Assembly (NCBI GenBank): GCA_041623475.1
Contig: JBFJWU010000147.1
Coordinates: 1-7,844, forward strand
Origin: JBFJWU01 sp041623475 [NCBI: bacterium]
Lineage (GTDB): Bacteria; J088
Length of the DNA: 7,844 nucleotides
Direction: 5' to 3'
Below the pieces are notes generated by a model, which searched no databases, had not been told where the DNA came from, and saw only the letters and a list, made by a program, of their open reading frames with translations. Shown here piece after piece: positions 1-7,844 of this stretch (position 1 is the first letter of the stretch; the number at the start of each line of letters is the position of its first letter). The translations under genes and the position numbers were made by a program.

Positions 1-1784
1 AGGCCTCCGGACGTACCGTGATAGATCCAAACACGTCCCGACACGGTACCGTAAACATAATCGCCCACGGCCACGTCATCGTATGTATCCTCGTTGAAAT
101 CACCGACAGCAAGGGCGTGGAACCCGCCGGCAGTGGCCTCTGCGACGGTCAAATCAGCATTGTTGTCAAAAGATCCGCCGTAGTAGACCCAGAACGCCTT
201 GCTGTCGCGAACAGTAACAATCAGGTCGTCATTGCCGTCCCCGTTAATTCGCCCGATTGCCAGGTCACTACCAAAGCCCGGAGTAGCGCAGCATGGGTAA
301 TAATAGGATTGGTTGGCGATACCAGGCAACAGGGTTGCGCCCGCGCCGTCTTCAAAAACCCTGACCGCAGCAGACCTGTTGCCTACATAGATTTCTGTCA
401 GTCCGTCGTTATCCTGGTCACCTGCTGCAATTGAATAAAGTGCCCCGATTCCTACGCCGACAGTCTGGTTAATTGCCATGCTTGACAACGTCCCGTTGCC
501 AAGGACGACCTTTAGATTGCCACTGTAGTCCCCAAAAACCAGATCCTTGATCCCGTCTGCGTTCAGGTCCGGGACTACCAGCATTTGGGCGATCGAAGTA
601 CCATTTGCAATTGAGTGAGAATGCGTCGTAGAAACGCCGCAACCAGACACACCTTTGTAAAAATAGATGGTATTTTGGGTCGCGACAATTATCTCGTCGT
701 TGCCATCATTGTCCAGGTCGCCTACCGCAACGGATTCATCCGGTGCGTTAAAGTTTCCACCGAAACGAGCTGTTCCACCCGCCGTGGGATTGACCTCGAA
801 CCAGTCTGCCGTCGTTTTCAGGCTGCCCGCGTTGTTGCAATACAGGTACGCCGCGCCCCACGGATTGTTGTTCAAATATTCAGGGGCACCAACGACAACT
901 TCCAGTTGGGCGTCGGCGGAACTGACATTGCCGATGACCACCGAAGCGCCAAAATATGCGTTGTCGTCGTCAGCAGGCTGCACCGTCCAGTCCGCAGAAT
1001 TCGTATAAATGGGGTCTATTACAACCGGGTACTCGGCCCCGGAATCATCAACCGAAATACTTACAAAATTGCCGGCGACTTCGAAACGTGTCGGCAGCAC
1101 GACACCGTCGGCATCGTAAGCAACCAGACTATGCGAATCGAATTCCGCACCTCGGTCCGAACTGTACCGTACGAATTGTTCGACCGGGTTCTTGTCCGCA
1201 TAGATCCGGCGTGCCCCAATATTTGTTTCTTTAATTTCTGGCTGCAACCCGTGCGCCTGCATCCGGACAACCAGATCCCCGTCGCCGTATGGCCGTCGGG
1301 AAATCGTCCACCCCTGCTCCAAGCCCTGTTCCGAATTCTCGTACCACTCGACGATGCCGTCGCCCAGTTCAATTTCGACACGATCCCCACGAACAATCGG
1401 AGTGCTGTGAGCAACCGAATCAAGCACTTCGCCACGACCTATCCCGCGAGTCGTCAGGCCCAGTGCAACAGCGGGAGAGACGCTGTCGTTCTTGACGAGT
1501 GCAACACCATTATCGGCAAAAGTCGTAGTAAATCCGTTCCCCGGGTTCGGCGCCTGAAGCAGTTTTCGGCTGCTGCGGACTTCCGGGAGAACTGTCGCAA
1601 GTACCGGCGTTTCCGAAATTACCTTGGCCGTGTCGGATTCTTTGTCGTCAATCCTGTACTCAACAGCACGGGTTTGATCTGGCACCGTTGTCGACATTCT
1701 TAAAATGCCAACTACGCCCAGCAGTAATAGAATTGCTAAGGCACCACCGGTGGTGCGACGATCGATATTCCGAACAAGGCTCAT
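1..1784 (-). CDS. FG-GAP repeat (integrin-like beta-propeller) surface or secreted protein, 3' end cut by window edge
   Basis: The minus-strand frame is open from ATG 1784-1782 to the left edge (594 codons plus two bases) with no stop. AGGAG (1796-1792) lies 7 bases before the ATG, which fixes the start. Residues 1-10 are basic (R5, R9, R10) and about 13-28 are hydrophobic (ALAILLLLGVVGIL), so this is a signal peptide or membrane anchor. It has no lipobox cysteine and is not a convincing Tat signal. Residues about 80-260 form an N-terminal domain with GLEQGW (154-159) and YPVVIDP (252-258), seen in other bacterial FG-GAP proteins. From about 275 FG-GAP blades follow. Calcium-loop-like D-x-D-x-D-G-x-D motifs or relatives start near D356 (DLDNDGND), D406, D456, R512 and D562, about 50 residues apart; an earlier blade lies near 286. 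Family knowledge: such proteins fold as calcium-binding propellers and act extracellularly in adhesion or as large secreted proteins. The ligand and true length cannot be seen. The frame is unbroken. Confidence 0.9.
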   Translation of the reverse strand, partial: MSLVRNIDRRTTGGALAILLLLGVVGILRMSTTVPDQTRAVEYRIDDKESDTAKVISETPVLATVLPEVRSSRKLLQAPNPGNGFTTTFADNGVALVKNDSVSPAVALGLTTRGIGRGEVLDSVAHSTPIVRGDRVEIELGDGIVEWYENSEQGLEQGWTISRRPYGDGDLVVRMQAHGLQPEIKETNIGARRIYADKNPVEQFVRYSSDRGAEFDSHSLVAYDADGVVLPTRFEVAGNFVSISVDDSGAEYPVVIDPIYTNSADWTVQPADDDNAYFGASVVIGNVSSADAQLEVVVGAPEYLNNNPWGAAYLYCNNAGSLKTTADWFEVNPTAGGTARFGGNFNAPDESVAVGDLDNDGNDEIIVATQNTIYFYKGVSGCGVSTTHSHSIANGTSIAQMLVVPDLNADGIKDLVFGDYSGNLKVVLGNGTLSSMAINQTVGVGIGALYSIAAGDQDNDGLTEIYVGNRSAAVRVFEDGAGATLLPGIANQSYYYPCCATPGFGSDLAIGRINGDGNDDLIVTVRDSKAFWVYYGGSFDNNADLTVAEATAGGFHALAVGDFNEDTYDDVAVGDYVYGTVSGRVWIYHGTSGG

Positions 1785-1854
1785 TGTTGCTCTCCTAAAC
1801 AATGAATGGATCAAGGCAAAATGTTGCGGCTACATCACCGCGGTTCGTTAATTT

Positions 1855-2954: not shown

Positions 2955-3599
2955 CTAGGTGGCCGCAGCCGCCAGCAGTCGCTCCTGCTGCCGGCGAACA
3001 ACCGGAATCAGAATCTCCGCTGTCTGGTAACCGACGCAGACAAGCTTCAGGCGTTCGCCATTAGTCAGTACCACGGCAGGAAAAGCCGTGATCCCGGCCA
3101 GTTTTGCCCGTTGGAAATTCAGCCTCGTCTGCTTTTCGGTCTCTGGGCGCCGAAACTCGCCACTGAACTCGTCGGGGTCGATCCCGACATCGGCAGCGGA
3201 ACCACGATAGGTGCTTTCATCGGTCGGATCTTCGCCCTGCGAATAAAAGCGAAATTGAACCCGGTCCAGGAACTCCATCGCCCGGGCAGGCCATGCTGCC
3301 GTAACAGCGTTGACCGCCCGTGACGCGGGCTCAGTATCGTAGACGAAGCCGGGGTTTCGATCAAAAAACGTCATGTCAAACTCCCGGCCGGATGTCTGCG
3401 CCACCTGTTGCCAATGATGCGTGATCTCGTGTGAAAGTTCCGGCGGCATTGGCGTGCGCGTATATGGCCGCAAACCACCGGGAACGATTTCTGTCGGCAT
3501 CTCGTTGGCTACAGCCTGGCTGATCGCCATCATCTGCGGCGCGAACCCATAACACCACGAACACATCGGGTCGGTAAAATACAGCAGCTTGAAGTCCAT
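2955..3599 (-). CDS. FrnE-like DsbA-family thiol oxidoreductase, cytoplasmic
   Basis: From ATG 3599 the protein has 214 residues. The thioredoxin-fold start (LLYFTDPMC) leads straight into the redox motif CSWC at 13-16, within the family signature DPMCSWCYGF. GGLRPYTRTPMPPE (41-54) is typical of this FrnE-like subgroup. Near the C-terminus TAFPAVVL (171-178) supplies the cis-proline (P174) that packs against the active site. The region between is the helical insertion expected for DsbA folds. There is no signal peptide, so it should act in the cytoplasm, unlike periplasmic DsbA; partner and substrate are unknown. The frame continues upstream through ATG 3626 (223 residues) to TTG 3671, but neither these starts nor ATG 3599 has a clear Shine-Dalgarno. 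I chose 3599 because homologous proteins begin just before the first beta strand. It is divergent from the pseudo-ATPase gene, and the longest version would overlap that gene's promoter region. Confidence 0.88.
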   Translation of the reverse strand: MDFKLLYFTDPMCSWCYGFAPQMMAISQAVANEMPTEIVPGGLRPYTRTPMPPELSHEITHHWQQVAQTSGREFDMTFFDRNPGFVYDTEPASRAVNAVTAAWPARAMEFLDRVQFRFYSQGEDPTDESTYRGSAADVGIDPDEFSGEFRRPETEKQTRLNFQRAKLAGITAFPAVVLTNGERLKLVCVGYQTAEILIPVVRRQQERLLAAAAT

Positions 3600-3626
3600 C
3601 GTTACATTGAAACAAAACTGCGACAT

Positions 3627-3655
3627 TTGCTGACGCGGAGGCGCTTTGCAATACT
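3627..3655 (+). promoter_or_regulatory. Candidate sigma-70 promoter for the pseudo-ATPase/pilT pair
   Basis: TTGCTG (3627-3632), a 17-base spacer and AATACT (3650-3655; 4 of 6 matches) form a plausible promoter. The expected start near 3662 falls at the first base of the inverted repeat at 3662-3685, so the mRNA would begin with a stem-loop. This coincidence supports the call but both hexamers are imperfect. Confidence 0.35.
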
Positions 3656-3661
3656 GTGTCC

Positions 3662-3685
3662 GCCCCGACAATCAATTGTCGGGGC
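3662..3685. promoter_or_regulatory. 11-base-arm inverted repeat in the divergent region
   Basis: The arm GCCCCGACAAT (3662-3672) is followed by CA and then its exact complement ATTGTCGGGGC (3675-3685). As DNA it is a strong symmetric operator candidate between two divergent genes. As RNA it can form a GC-rich stem once the innermost A-T pairs open as a loop. No U tract follows, so it is not an intrinsic terminator. Confidence 0.55.
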
Positions 3686-3718
3686 CAATTGACCGGGTGG
3701 AGGACCCCCAAATTGGCC
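3683..3718 (+). promoter_or_regulatory. Structured translation-initiation region of the pseudo-ATPase gene
   Basis: GGCCAATT (3683-3690) is the exact complement of AATTGGCC (3711-3718), and the right arm contains the TTG start codon (3713-3715). Between them GGGT (3695-3698) pairs with ACCC (3704-3707), presenting the ribosome site GGAGG (3699-3703) exactly as the five-base loop. The left arm shares bases 3683-3685 with the preceding inverted repeat, so the two large stems compete. This is a possible translational switch; function is inferred. Confidence 0.4.
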
Positions 3719-5329
3719 GAACCTGAAAAACGACGCTCGCTGGGCCAGATCCTGACAGGGTTCGGCATTATCAGCGAGCAGCAGCTGGACGAGGCCCTTG
3801 CGGCGCAGAAAGATTCTGGCCTGCGCCTGGGCGAGCAACTTCAGGAAATGGAGTTCTGCGACACAGGCGATGTCGAATGGGCCCTGTCCACGCAACTGGA
3901 ACTGCCATTGGTCAGGGTCACCCTGGAGATGGTTGACCGCGACGCAGCCAGCCTGGTTCCCCCGGGGCTTGCGCGGGCTGGCTGCCTGATCCCCATCTGG
4001 GCTGTCGGCGACGATGTCGGGATCGTCATGGCAGACCCGACCAACCAGCAGGTCAAGGATGCGGTCGCCGAGGCCACGGGCAAAGAAGCCCAGTTTTCAT
4101 TGGGCATCCCGTCAGAGATCCGCGGCGTCATCAACGAAATCTTTGGCGATGCGCCCGAAGGCGATGGTCAGAGTGTATTCGGATTGTACGATACGGACCT
4201 GTTCGGCAAGGAAGATGCCCGGACCATTAACCTGGATGCATCCGGCAAAGCGTTCCTGGAACGGTTGTTTGCCGAGGCGGTGCTGGCTGGTGCAAATGCT
4301 GTATTTTTTGAACGACGCTCCGGTGCCTTTTCGATCCGATTTCGCATCGGCAGTGAGGTACGGACGGTAGTGACCTGCCAGGTGGACTGGTACGACCAGT
4401 TGACGCAAAAACTGGACGTAATGGCCAACCTGCGTGAAACAGGCCAATTTGGCATACGCCAGGGTCGCCTGTTTCCCGAGATCGCCGATACCCAGATCCG
4501 AACCGGATTCGAGGTCACCTCGGCGCCCGCTGGACGCCACGTCACGGTCACGTGCCGCCCCATGCGCCGCCTGCGGACGACGCCGGACCTGGCGACAATC
4601 GATTTTGGCGAATCGGCGAACTTGCTTGAAGCCGCAACTGCGGACCCTGATTCTGCGTTTGTTGTCGCGGCATCGGATACGGGCTTTCACGGCTGGCTGA
4701 TGCGCGCCTTGTTGAACGGACTGAACAATGATCAACGGCGAACAATCGCCATCGCCCGCGAGCGAGAGATTGCCGACGAACGGGTCGAAGACCGGACCTA
4801 CACGGTCATCGATCCGGGTGAACAACGACCAACCACCGAGCAGATCCTGGAACAGGTCCTGGCACTGGAACCCAATCTGCTGCTGATCGACGCTCCGTGG
4901 AATCAGGCCGACCGGGAGGTCATCCGGTTCCTGCAACTGCAGCATGTTCAGGTCATTCAGGCCCGTTACAGCGAAAACGCGGCGACACTGGCCCGCGAAC
5001 TGGCTGAAACCGCGCTGGCCGCACCCGGCAGCGACACGTTGGCCCTGTCGGGACTGGTGATCCCCGCCATATGCGATTCGTGCCGCCAGGAAATCTCTGG
5101 CGTCGAAATTCCGGGCGTTAAACCGGACATCACGCTGTTCGAGGCCTCTGGTTGCAAAGAGTGTGACTATACCGGTTCATCCGGCAACGAATTTGTTGCA
5201 CAGGCCATTTCCATCGATCAGGCAGACGGCGCTGGCGATGCCCTGGCCAGCCGGTTGACCGAGTATCTGGAACAAGGTCGAATTGCGGCAGCGGATTATA
5301 TGCTGCTGCTGGCAAAAAGGACAGGTTGA
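3713..5329 (+). CDS. MshEN-domain GspE/PilB-family pseudo-ATPase upstream of PilT
   Basis: The 538-residue protein follows the layout of pilus-assembly and type II secretion ATPases (PilB/GspE/MshE). Residues 9-61 form two 24-residue MshEN repeats (S9-Q32, R38-Q61; each with LG near its start and ALxxQ at its end) separated by five residues, the arrangement known to bind cyclic di-GMP. Residues about 82-145 complete the N domain. Residues about 175-285 match the N2 domain (FRIGSE, KLDVMANL, FGIRQGR). The ATPase core from about 290 is degenerate. The Walker A position reads ASDTGFHG (320-327) without GK[ST]. The Walker B position reads LLLIDAPWN (389-397) where active enzymes have VGE. The His-box position reads ARYS (417-420) instead of TLHT. 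The zinc tetracysteine survives (C454, C457, C481, C484), which marks PilB/GspE rather than PilT ancestry. TTG 3713 is chosen because GGAGG lies 9 bases upstream; GTG 3656 in the same frame would overlap the inverted repeat. ATP hydrolysis is very unlikely. A regulatory or structural role with PilT is inference. Confidence 0.85.
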   Translation: MAEPEKRRSLGQILTGFGIISEQQLDEALAAQKDSGLRLGEQLQEMEFCDTGDVEWALSTQLELPLVRVTLEMVDRDAASLVPPGLARAGCLIPIWAVGDDVGIVMADPTNQQVKDAVAEATGKEAQFSLGIPSEIRGVINEIFGDAPEGDGQSVFGLYDTDLFGKEDARTINLDASGKAFLERLFAEAVLAGANAVFFERRSGAFSIRFRIGSEVRTVVTCQVDWYDQLTQKLDVMANLRETGQFGIRQGRLFPEIADTQIRTGFEVTSAPAGRHVTVTCRPMRRLRTTPDLATIDFGESANLLEAATADPDSAFVVAASDTGFHGWLMRALLNGLNNDQRRTIAIAREREIADERVEDRTYTVIDPGEQRPTTEQILEQVLALEPNLLLIDAPWNQADREVIRFLQLQHVQVIQARYSENAATLARELAETALAAPGSDTLALSGLVIPAICDSCRQEISGVEIPGVKPDITLFEASGCKECDYTGSSGNEFVAQAISIDQADGAGDALASRLTEYLEQGRIAAADYMLLLAKRTG

Positions 5330-5331
5330 AC

Positions 5332-6420
5332 GTGGCCAAGATTGACCAGTTTTTCAAGCATATGGTGGAAAAAGGCGCCAGCGATATGCACTTCAGCTGC
5401 GGTTCAAAACCGCTGCTGCGCAAAGGCGGAGAACTGGAACCGATCAATTTTGACGTCCTGAATCACAAGCTGGGCACCGAATTGCTGATGGAAATCATGA
5501 CCGAAGCCCAGCGCGAAGAATTCAAGAAAACGAAAGACATTGACTTCGCGTATGCGCCCAAGACCGTGGATGCCAGGTTCCGGGCCAACATATTTATCGG
5601 CCGTCTGGGCATTGGCGCCGTCTTTCGCCAGATCCCGTCAGAAGTCCTGACCGCTGAACAACTGGGACTGCCGCCGGCGGTCCTGAAATTCGGCAAGCTC
5701 AGTCGCGGAATGGTCCTGGTTACCGGTGCAACCGGGTCCGGCAAGTCGACGACGCTGGCTGCGATCATTGACTACATCAACAAAACCCGCAAAGACCACA
5801 TCCTGACCCTTGAGGATCCGATCGAATTTGTTCACAAGAACCAGATGTGCCTGGTCAACCAACGGGAAGTCGGCAACCATACCGAGTCATTTTCCCGGGC
5901 CCTGCGTGCAGCCCTGCGCCAGGACCCGGATATCATCCTGGTTGGCGAGATGCGGGACCTGGAAACGATTGAACTGGCAATCACAGCCGCAGAAACCGGC
6001 CACCTGGTATTCGGCACGCTGCACACGTCATCCGCTCCCAAGACCGTAGACCGTATCATCAACGTTTTCCCAACCGACCAGCAGGAACAGATCCGGACCA
6101 TGCTGGGCGAGTCCCTCAAGGGCGTCATCGCGCAGAACCTGTGCAAGAAGCTTGAAGGCGGCCGGGTCGCGGCCCTTGAAATCCTGGTGATCAATCGTGC
6201 AGTCGCAAACCTGATCCGCGAAGGCAAACTGTACCAGATACCGTCGATCATGCAGACAGCCAAACGAGAAGGCATGCAGACCATGGAACAGGCCCTGATG
6301 GATCTGGTCCAGGCCAAAGTGATCAGCGGCGAAGAGGCCTACATTAAGGCAAATGACAAAGACCAGTTTGCCAAGTTCGTCAAGGCTGACCCTGAAACCG
6401 GGGAAATGCCAGGCAGCTAG
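5332..6420 (+). CDS. pilT: Type IV pilus retraction ATPase PilT
   Basis: The 362-residue protein is a full PilT-family hexameric motor, the cytoplasmic ATPase that depolymerises pilin and drives twitching motility and DNA uptake. Seen in order: an N-terminal PAS-like domain with SDMHF (17-21); Walker A GATGSGKST (132-140, K138); Asp box EDPIEF (161-166); Walker B IILVGEMRD (201-209, E206); His box GTLHTSSA (228-235, H231); and GMQT (314-317). The PilT C-terminal retraction motif AIRNLIRE appears as AVANLIRE (290-297), with two substitutions. Usual PilT is about 345 residues; this one has a slightly longer charged tail. It lacks the MshEN domain and tetracysteine zinc site of PilB. GTG 5332 is chosen because AAGGA (5317-5321) is 10 bases upstream. 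TTG 5326 is also in frame and would overlap the upstream stop as TTGA; either way the genes are translationally coupled. PilU is the main alternative, but the sequence is closer to PilT. No pilU follows; argB does. Confidence 0.92.
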   Translation: MAKIDQFFKHMVEKGASDMHFSCGSKPLLRKGGELEPINFDVLNHKLGTELLMEIMTEAQREEFKKTKDIDFAYAPKTVDARFRANIFIGRLGIGAVFRQIPSEVLTAEQLGLPPAVLKFGKLSRGMVLVTGATGSGKSTTLAAIIDYINKTRKDHILTLEDPIEFVHKNQMCLVNQREVGNHTESFSRALRAALRQDPDIILVGEMRDLETIELAITAAETGHLVFGTLHTSSAPKTVDRIINVFPTDQQEQIRTMLGESLKGVIAQNLCKKLEGGRVAALEILVINRAVANLIREGKLYQIPSIMQTAKREGMQTMEQALMDLVQAKVISGEEAYIKANDKDQFAKFVKADPETGEMPGS

Positions 6421-6498: not shown

Positions 6499-7407
6499 GT
6501 GGAACATGCAAAACGACGGGCCGCTATTCTTCACGAAGCGCTGCCCTATATCCAGAAATTTTCCGGCAAGACCGTACTGATCAAGTACGGCGGTCACGCC
6601 ATGGTCGACCCGGACCTGCAGCAGAGCTTTGCCCGGGATGTCGTCCTGCTCAAGCAGATTGGCGTCAATCCCGTCGTCGTCCATGGCGGTGGTCCCCAGA
6701 TCGGTGAATTCCTGCAAAAACTTGATATCCCGTCGCGATTTGTTGGCGGCCAGCGGATTACCGATGACGAGACCATGAGCGTCGTCGAAATGGTCCTGGT
6801 CGGCAAGGTCAACAAGGAAATTGTCAACATGATCCAGACCGCCGGCGGCAAGGCAGTTGGACTGTCCGGCAAGGACGGCGGCCTGGTCGTCGCCACGCGG
6901 ATGAAACTGGAACAGGAATCACCTGACGATGCCCCGCCCGAAATCATTGACATTGGCAAAGTCGGACAGATTACTAAAATCAACCCCGAAGTCATCGAAT
7001 CCGTTGAATCGTCCGGATTTATCGCCGTCATTGCGCCGGTCGGCCGCTCCCGTGACGGCGAGACGCTGAACATCAATGCCGACACCGTCGCTGGTGAACT
7101 GGCGGCCGCATTAGGGGCTGAAAAACTGATTCTGCTGACAGATGTCCCAGGTGTAAAGTCCAGCGACGGCTGGGTTCAGTCCCTTGGGGTTGACGCGATC
7201 GCGAAACTGGCCGAGGCCGGCGATGTCACCGGCGGTATGATTCCCAAGCTGGACTGTGCTGCCAACGCAGTCAAAGGGGGCGTTCCGGAAGTCCACATCC
7301 TGGACGGTCGGGTCCCGAATGTTGTCCTGCTGGAACTGTTCACCGACGAAGGCGTCGGTACGATGATTACCCGCGGTAACGACCTGAAAGTTCGCGCCGA
7401 CGCCTAG
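6499..7407 (+). CDS. argB: Acetylglutamate kinase
   Basis: The 302-residue enzyme phosphorylates N-acetyl-L-glutamate with ATP, the second step of arginine biosynthesis, in the cytoplasm. Amino acid kinase motifs are all present: KTVLIKYGG (24-32) with catalytic K29; [10 protein letters not shown] (61-70), which binds the acetylglutamate/phosphate; GLSGKDGG (121-128); the NINAD loop (191-195); LLTDVPGV (212-219) for ATP; and [10 protein letters not shown] (245-254) with the second catalytic lysine K250. It closely follows the Pseudomonas enzyme in length and sequence. The mobile N-terminal helix before FSGKT (EALPYIQKF, 13-21) is the hallmark of arginine-inhibited hexameric forms, so feedback inhibition is likely. 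The start is GTG 6499, 8 bases after AAGGG; no upstream extension is supported. The C-terminus (about 292-302) has a short charged tail. No other arg gene is in the window. Its TAG overlaps the stop of the convergent ABC gene. Confidence 0.97.
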
Positions 7408-7844
7408 CCTGTTCCAGCGCCCTCAACTAACGGATGAAAACAGGCGACAGAATGGTCACGACCATCCAGGTCAGGCATCTGGGCAGAACATTGGTCGCTT
7501 GCCCGCGCACACCGCAGACGGAACGCACAGCCACTGGGCGGGTTGGATGGCGACGGCGGTTCGCCTTTTAGCAGGATCCGTTCCCGCTCTTTGCCGGGTT
7601 CAGGTCGTGGCACTGCATCCAGCAATGCCCGGGTGTACGGGTGCCTGGGATTGGCAAAGATGTCGGCGGGCGTTCCCGATTCAACAATGCGGCCCAGATA
7701 CATCACCAGGACCCTGTCCGAGATCCGCTCGACAACCCTCAAGTCGTGGCTGATAAACAACATGCTGTGACCGTGCTGCTCTTTCAAATCCATCAGCAAA
7801 TTGAGGATCTGCGCCTGTACGCTGACATCCAGGGCAGAAACCGC
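7404..7844 (-). CDS. dppF: Dipeptide/oligopeptide ABC transporter ATP-binding protein, C-terminal part (5' end outside window)
   Basis: The visible 146 residues are the C-terminal part of a DppF/OppF-type nucleotide-binding subunit, the inner-membrane peripheral ATPase that powers peptide uptake. The fragment opens with [15 protein letters not shown], the end of Walker B and the D-loop. It continues with the switch histidine in [11 protein letters not shown], then [11 protein letters not shown] and [11 protein letters not shown], and the oligopeptide C-terminal domain with [15 protein letters not shown] and four cysteines (in CAFRLRC, QCS and VACF). Related transporters can hold an iron-sulfur cluster at such cysteines; whether this one does is not visible. 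[15 protein letters not shown] and VACF favour DppF over DppD. The Walker A and signature motifs lie beyond the right edge. The gene converges on argB and the two stop codons overlap in CTAG (7404-7407). Confidence 0.9.

Follow-up and report, generated by a model that had tools for sequence, protein, structure and literature searches.

How extension and retraction motors alternate at a single pilus base, and how c-di-GMP controls the balance between them, are open questions. In the window (the whole stretch of 7,844 nucleotides analysed here), the gene directly in front of an intact pilT encodes a protein related to the PilB/GspE-type ATPases, in which much of the catalytic apparatus has been replaced. 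What might such a protein do next to PilT? An earlier note on this DNA took it for a dead assembly-type motor that is maintained rather than decaying, and suggested that it could cap, scaffold or regulate the pilus machine. The loss of the ATP site, a neutral-drift simulation, codon usage and the overlap with pilT all speak for the dead but maintained motor. A largely conserved, predicted c-di-GMP pocket in the N domain was overlooked in that note. The protein, which we call the pseudo-motor, is probably a sensor or regulator and not an engine.

The gene and its neighbours

The pseudo-motor gene, recognised by Pfam, alignment and model, occupies positions 3713-5329 of the forward strand. It starts with TTG at 3713, ends with TGA at 5327-5329 and comprises 538 codons. 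A Shine-Dalgarno-like sequence graded as strong, GGTGGAGGA, is located at 3696-3704 on the same strand, 8 nt 5' of the start. The 538-residue protein consists of an MshEN domain (residues 1-147), a linker, an N2D domain (~179-290), a degenerate RecA-type motor (~291-503) and a shortened C-terminus. The TTG start of pilT (5326-6420, forward strand) shares four bases (TTGA) with the pseudo-motor stop, and the description of a long, clean frame directly 5' of pilT is thus confirmed; a GTG two codons downstream is an alternative pilT start. The motifs GATGSGKS, VGEMRD and HLVFGTLHTS are all intact in PilT, which matches TIGR01420 with 467.8 bits (cut-off 319.1).

At the composition of the pseudo-motor gene, 538 consecutive codons would be free of stops with a probability of ~1e-8. 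When neutral drift was simulated from the gene, 24 of 200 runs were still free of stops at 90% identity and 4 of 200 at 80%; at 60, 45 and 30% identity the count was 0 of 200. The codon preference, trained on the remaining window genes, is 0.207 for the pseudo-motor, with 0.262 for argB, 0.241 for pilT, 0.230 for the uracil-DNA glycosylase (UDG), 0.095 for the DsbA-type gene and 0.086 for the ABC ATPase. The open frame, the codon usage and the 4-base overlap with pilT therefore indicate a maintained gene, not decay. Together these results show that the gene has been under selection in the past, and they are also compatible with a very recent silencing.

A perfect inverted repeat, GCCCCGACAAT / ATTGTCGGGGC, with 11-nt arms and a 2-nt spacer, is present at 3662-3685, 5' of the pseudo-motor gene. 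It lies between this gene and the divergent dsbA-type gene, provided that the latter starts at a later Met and not at TTG 3671. The repeat is not followed by a T run and is thus operator-like rather than terminator-like, making it a possible operator. Between 3500 and 6520 no sigma-70 promoter was predicted, an uninformative result given that shuffled sequence yields 1.2, and a search for RNA families and tRNAs found none.

The other genes of the window are an FG-GAP repeat protein (3-1814, reverse strand; Pfam), truncated by the window edge, a uracil-DNA glycosylase of the SMUG1 type (2232-2939), which scores 286 bits against SMUG1 of Geobacter metallireducens, the DsbA-type protein (2955-3671, reverse strand; Pfam), argB downstream of pilT (6499-7407) and an oligopeptide ABC ATPase (7404-7799, reverse strand; Pfam). 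Up to an E value of 1, neither Pfam nor NCBIfam has a model that reports the SMUG1-type gene. The FG-GAP gene has a codon preference of -0.020, unlike the other window genes (0.086 to 0.262).

The ATP site and the fold of the motor body

The pseudo-motor matches the Pfam family T2SSE with 41.4 bits (cut-off 24.9), and stays far under the NCBIfam equivalogs for PilB (63.7 of 675.65 bits) and GspE (30.7 of 630.25 bits). In a phmmer search of sequences of known structures, PilF, MshE, PilB and GspE match along its length. We aligned it with 15 intact motors, 13 from genomes and 2 from one plasmid, giving 16 rows; the 13 come from the 15 motors of a 274-genome search, two of which were left out because of unclear starts. 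Identity to the 15 intact motors is 17-22%, with a mean of 17% in the CTD.

At the TGPTGSGKT columns of Walker A the pseudo-motor reads AASDTGFHG (residues 319-327; 4667-4693, forward strand), although the register may shift by one residue. In the former Walker B region (residues 390-398; 4880-4906, forward strand) LLIDAPWNQ stands at the ILVGEIRDx columns, so that the VGEIRD columns read IDAPWN and the catalytic glutamate column, E394, is an alanine. The losses of the Walker A lysine and the Walker B glutamate reported in the earlier note are borne out, and GK[ST] does not occur anywhere in the protein. The former HIS box (residues 410-421; 4940-4975, forward strand) reads QHVQVIQARYSE at the TGHLVLSTLHTN columns, with Val in place of H412 and Tyr in place of H419. 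His411 is one residue off the first histidine column, and faces that histidine in the pairing of the earlier note. Therefore, only the second HIS-box histidine, on the phosphate side, is lost in either register, and the claim that the HIS-box histidine has gone applies to that residue. Replacement also extends to the RLPQDG motif and to most of SDIHIEP.

The earlier claim that every catalytic motif has been replaced goes a little too far. It is right for Walker A, the catalytic glutamate and the second HIS-box histidine; of the arginine-finger columns, R267 has become Glu and R282 is retained, and the ASP-box glutamate E352 is perhaps retained, in a stretch that is poorly aligned and modelled with low confidence. 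By spacing and comparison with PilB (PMC5424180), the columns R267, R282 and E352 would be equivalent to R271, R286 and E357 of PilB, so that R282 and E352 would match one arginine finger and the ASP-box glutamate, both of them ATP-site ligands in PilB. A displaced but intact P-loop, which would speak against a dead motor, was looked for in all six frames of the window; the sole G....GK[ST] is the GATGSGKS of pilT at 5725. As judged from the alignment, these replacements show that the ATP site has been lost and that the pseudo-motor is a PilB/MshE-type protein with a dead motor.

The zinc tetracysteine module (5072-5164, forward strand) survives, as had been noted, with Cys454, Cys457, Cys481 and Cys484 all present. 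To describe what else is kept, we took the 14 intact motors with an N domain and counted the columns in which all of them agree. The pseudo-motor retains 10 of 12 such columns in MshEN (7/9 in MshEN_N and 3/3 in MshEN_C), 6/27 in N2D and 12/60 in the CTD, four of these 12 being the zinc cysteines; N2D and CTD together retain 18/87. The survival of the N domains, also claimed earlier, thus holds for MshEN and not for N2D, where degeneration has gone as far as in the motor. In a leave-one-out comparison, each of the 14 intact motors retains at least 27 of 29 columns in N2D and at least 60 of 62 in the CTD. Since intact motors miss at most two invariant columns per domain, chance is excluded as a cause of the losses in the pseudo-motor. 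Expressed relative to the intact-motor level, its identity is 0.84 in MshEN_N, 0.66 in MshEN_C, 0.53 in the linker, 0.40 in N2D, 0.33 in the CTD and 0.42 in the tail. A constraint that differs by domain, higher in MshEN than in N2D and CTD, is not expected from decay.

An AlphaFold2 model built with an alignment of 15 relatives has a mean pLDDT of 70.2 and a pTM of 0.48, with residues 146-174, 286-288 and 349-371 under pLDDT 50; the alignment-free model (mean pLDDT 36.4) was unusable. Superposed with VIA-align, the model matches PilF (5oiu) with a Z score of 20.6 (rmsd 5.3, 343 residues), PilB with 20.2 (5tsh) and 20.1 (5zfr), and EpsE (1p9w) with 19.4. MshE (5htl) gives 14.2 over 116 residues, and PilT structures at most 13.6. 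The top Foldseek matches are GspE, PilF and PilB chains. The superposition on PilB/GspE that had been proposed as a check thus gives Z scores of 19 to 21 over ~340 residues, from a middling model and an alignment biased towards motors. Because that alignment is made of true motors, the model demonstrates just compatibility with their fold. The overall fold of an extension ATPase is predicted for the pseudo-motor on this basis.

The MshEN domain and possible roles at the pilus base

The MshEN domain (residues 1-147; 3713-4153, forward strand) contains the predicted c-di-GMP pocket. It matches Pfam PF05157 over residues 63-148 (41.5 bits, cut-off 23.1) and the c-di-GMP motif NF053729 over residues 10-61 (49.9 bits, cut-off 38), and aligns without gaps to residues 6-118 of MshE of the Vibrio cholerae MSHA pilus (PDB 5htl). 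In MshE, c-di-GMP is contacted by R9, L10, G11, L25, L29, Q32, R38, L39, G40, L54, L58, Q61 and D108 (PMC5013675). The contacts fall in two 24-residue motifs; 12 were scored and D108 was added as the 13th. Ten of the 12 (L10, G11, L25, L29, Q32, R38, L39, G40, L58 and Q61) are identical in the pseudo-motor, as is D108, whereas Arg9 is replaced by Ser and Leu54 by Val. Within residues 6-64, 10/12 contacts but only 15/47 other positions are identical (Fisher p 0.0018). With D108 included the pseudo-motor scores 11/13, inside the span of 8 to 12 given by the 14 intact motors. The conservation of the contacts in the pseudo-motor rests on one sequence.

Published mutants give an idea of what these changes could mean. 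In MshE, changes of charged residues such as Arg9 altered the affinity at most fivefold, replacing a conserved hydrophobic residue lowered it by a factor above ten, and variants at G11 or G40 bound little or no c-di-GMP; in XpsE, binding was lost through changes at G11, I19, L29, R38, G40, L54, L58 and Q61 (PMC5013675). Applied to the retained contacts, these effects make c-di-GMP binding by the pseudo-motor MshEN domain likely but not certain, as predicted from its sequence. The affinity could be weak, given the changes of R9 to Ser and L54 to Val, that of the turn residue Gly47 of MshE to Glu, and departures from the published MshEN motif at the core positions T15, Q44 and C49.

The largely conserved pocket makes regulation dependent on c-di-GMP likelier than a passive cap or scaffold. 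We favor, with a probability of about one half, that the pseudo-motor regulates the pilus base and is itself switched by c-di-GMP, as a protein in which the input domain and the zinc module have been kept and the ATP output lost. In this mechanism, the MshEN domain is predicted to bind c-di-GMP. The degenerate N2D/CTD body would dock on a PilC-type platform or on the ring of PilT or PilB; a body still shaped like an extension ATPase should be able to dock on the same partners. The docked protein may then block or stabilize one motor and so bias extension against PilT-driven retraction. The overlapping genes would have it co-expressed with PilT. More specifically, and only tentatively, it could occupy the base as a regulatory ring or clutch, gated by c-di-GMP, and either pass the base on to the co-encoded PilT or withhold it.

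A purely structural part has a modest chance of being the right explanation. A non-hydrolysing ring or subunit would cap or scaffold the pilus base, PilT or another ATPase would supply the power, and c-di-GMP would be irrelevant. The predicted motor fold and the retained zinc module are in line with it, and there is a precedent in V. cholerae, where PilT K136A still interacts and serves pilus function when PilU is active (PMC6821130; PMC9815625), but it leaves unexplained why MshEN, and especially its c-di-GMP contacts, is the best-preserved region. Conversely, the pseudo-motor might have left the pilus altogether as a free-standing c-di-GMP receptor whose degenerate body binds another target. 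MshEN domains are joined elsewhere to kinases, CheA and many other outputs (PMC5013675), the N domain matches NfrB-type glycosyltransferases in NCBIfam (far under the cut-off), and the poor retention of invariant columns in the body would agree with a new target. Yet T2SSE is recognizable along the body, the zinc cysteines are present and the gene overlaps pilT, and we find such a departure rather doubtful.

That the gene was long kept as a divergent protein and has lost its function recently, by silencing or the onset of decay, is improbable. Neither a stop nor a frameshift is present, whereas neutral drift this far would give many stops, and the codon usage and Shine-Dalgarno sequence are intact and the N domain preferentially preserved; the low CTD identity to intact motors, the TTG start and the failure to find an orthologue in the genomes searched would suit a silenced gene. 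A rebuilt site, with the protein still an ATPase or at least binding nucleotides, is very improbable. It could draw on R282, perhaps on E352, and on H411 if the register shifts by one, but GK[ST] is missing and the phosphate loop, the catalytic Glu, the second HIS-box His and RLPQDG have been replaced.

The pseudo-motor is unusual, yet it belongs to the PilB/MshE kind rather than to a novel type of system. MshE, which shares the gap-free N domain and its contacts, is a working extension ATPase (PMC9815625), whereas the motor of the pseudo-motor is degenerate and its ATP site lost. With PilB, PilF and GspE it has in common the T2SSE domain, the N2D-CTD layout, the zinc tetracysteine and the predicted fold; it differs from them in lacking the Walker A Lys, the catalytic Glu, the second HIS-box His and one arginine finger. 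The pairing of a second motor-family protein with PilT recalls PilU and ATPase-defective PilT of V. cholerae. PilU, however, is of the PilT type and has the conserved Walker A lysine (PMC6821130), and the pseudo-motor is of the PilB type and naturally without an ATP site. In that system, ATPase-defective PilT still contacts PilU and supports PilU-driven retraction, and pilus function can thus outlast the loss of ATPase activity in one partner (PMC6821130). In MSHA pili, PilT participates in extension, and c-di-GMP stimulates the extension that depends on MshE (PMC9815625).

In principle the pseudo-motor also resembles FimX of Xanthomonas and Pseudomonas, a partly degenerate c-di-GMP receptor that acts with PilZ on the extension motor PilB (PMC8389850; PMC11656802): both would be degenerate former enzymes that bind c-di-GMP and act on a motor. 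FimX is a GGDEF/EAL protein with no kinship to motors, and the pseudo-motor does not belong to its kind. CpiA of Acinetobacter baylyi, which inhibits the motor PilB, may be similar in effect; it is described as having no homology to known domains (PMC8213720), unlike the motor-related pseudo-motor. The c-di-GMP input and the ATPase, united in MshE, are split in the pseudo-motor, which could therefore reveal the effect of MshEN on the machine apart from ATP hydrolysis. Among the literature matches listed, mostly from non-subscription sources and thus weak evidence of absence, we found no description of a PilB/GspE relative that naturally lacks the ATP site, nor any mention of inactive ATPases in a paper on archaeal pili.

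Relatives and genomic distribution

Whole-genome searches with the pseudo-motor as query gave matches in 2/2, 1/41, 15/274, 2/398, 3/78 and 0/1 genomes, with at most five candidates per genome scored in the 274-genome search and at most three in the 398-genome search; these 794 look-ups overlap, hence the distinct genomes are fewer. All 23 matches are motors with an intact P-loop, and no orthologue was found in the sampled Pseudomonadota and Campylobacterota genomes. A scan of the genome contigs of 84,980 species, in which one of six 8-residue peptides had to be matched exactly, returned five loci, all of Campylobacterota type (one Epsilonproteobacteria) and all with GPTGSGKS. Viral contigs returned none, and plasmids five records at 20-24% identity, in one of which the matched ATPase and its neighbour are both intact.

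The neighbouring genes are likewise distant from those of the genomes sampled. The window PilT reaches at most 57% identity over its length to Pseudomonadota (146 of 259 genomes matching), and the best identity of ArgB is 60%, suggesting that the lineage of the window is absent from the sampled genomes. Against plasmid-borne copies, PilT is 54.5% identical to one from Aeromonas and 47-49% to those from Actinomycetota, Desulfuromonadia, Nitrospirota and Campylobacterota, somewhat nearer to the gammaproteobacterial than to other plasmid copies. In a PilT tree of 48 rows it is placed on a long, unresolved branch. Among 30 pilT loci taken from the 146 of 259 matching genomes, no relative of the pseudo-motor was found in the flanks (26 have at least 750 bases upstream, and four have less than 220), nor argB within 0.7-1.5 kb downstream of pilT. 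The pairing of the pseudo-motor gene with pilT is known from this single window.

A different arrangement was seen on a plasmid of Candidatus Manganitrophus (L079, 2149-7649), where the genes for two extension-type ATPases, both with an intact P-loop, cluster with pilT and a platform-type gene; just one of these two ATPases has the MshEN_N part. PilB/GspE-type ATPases are also encoded on four contigs of the viral collection (L086, L087, L088 and L092).
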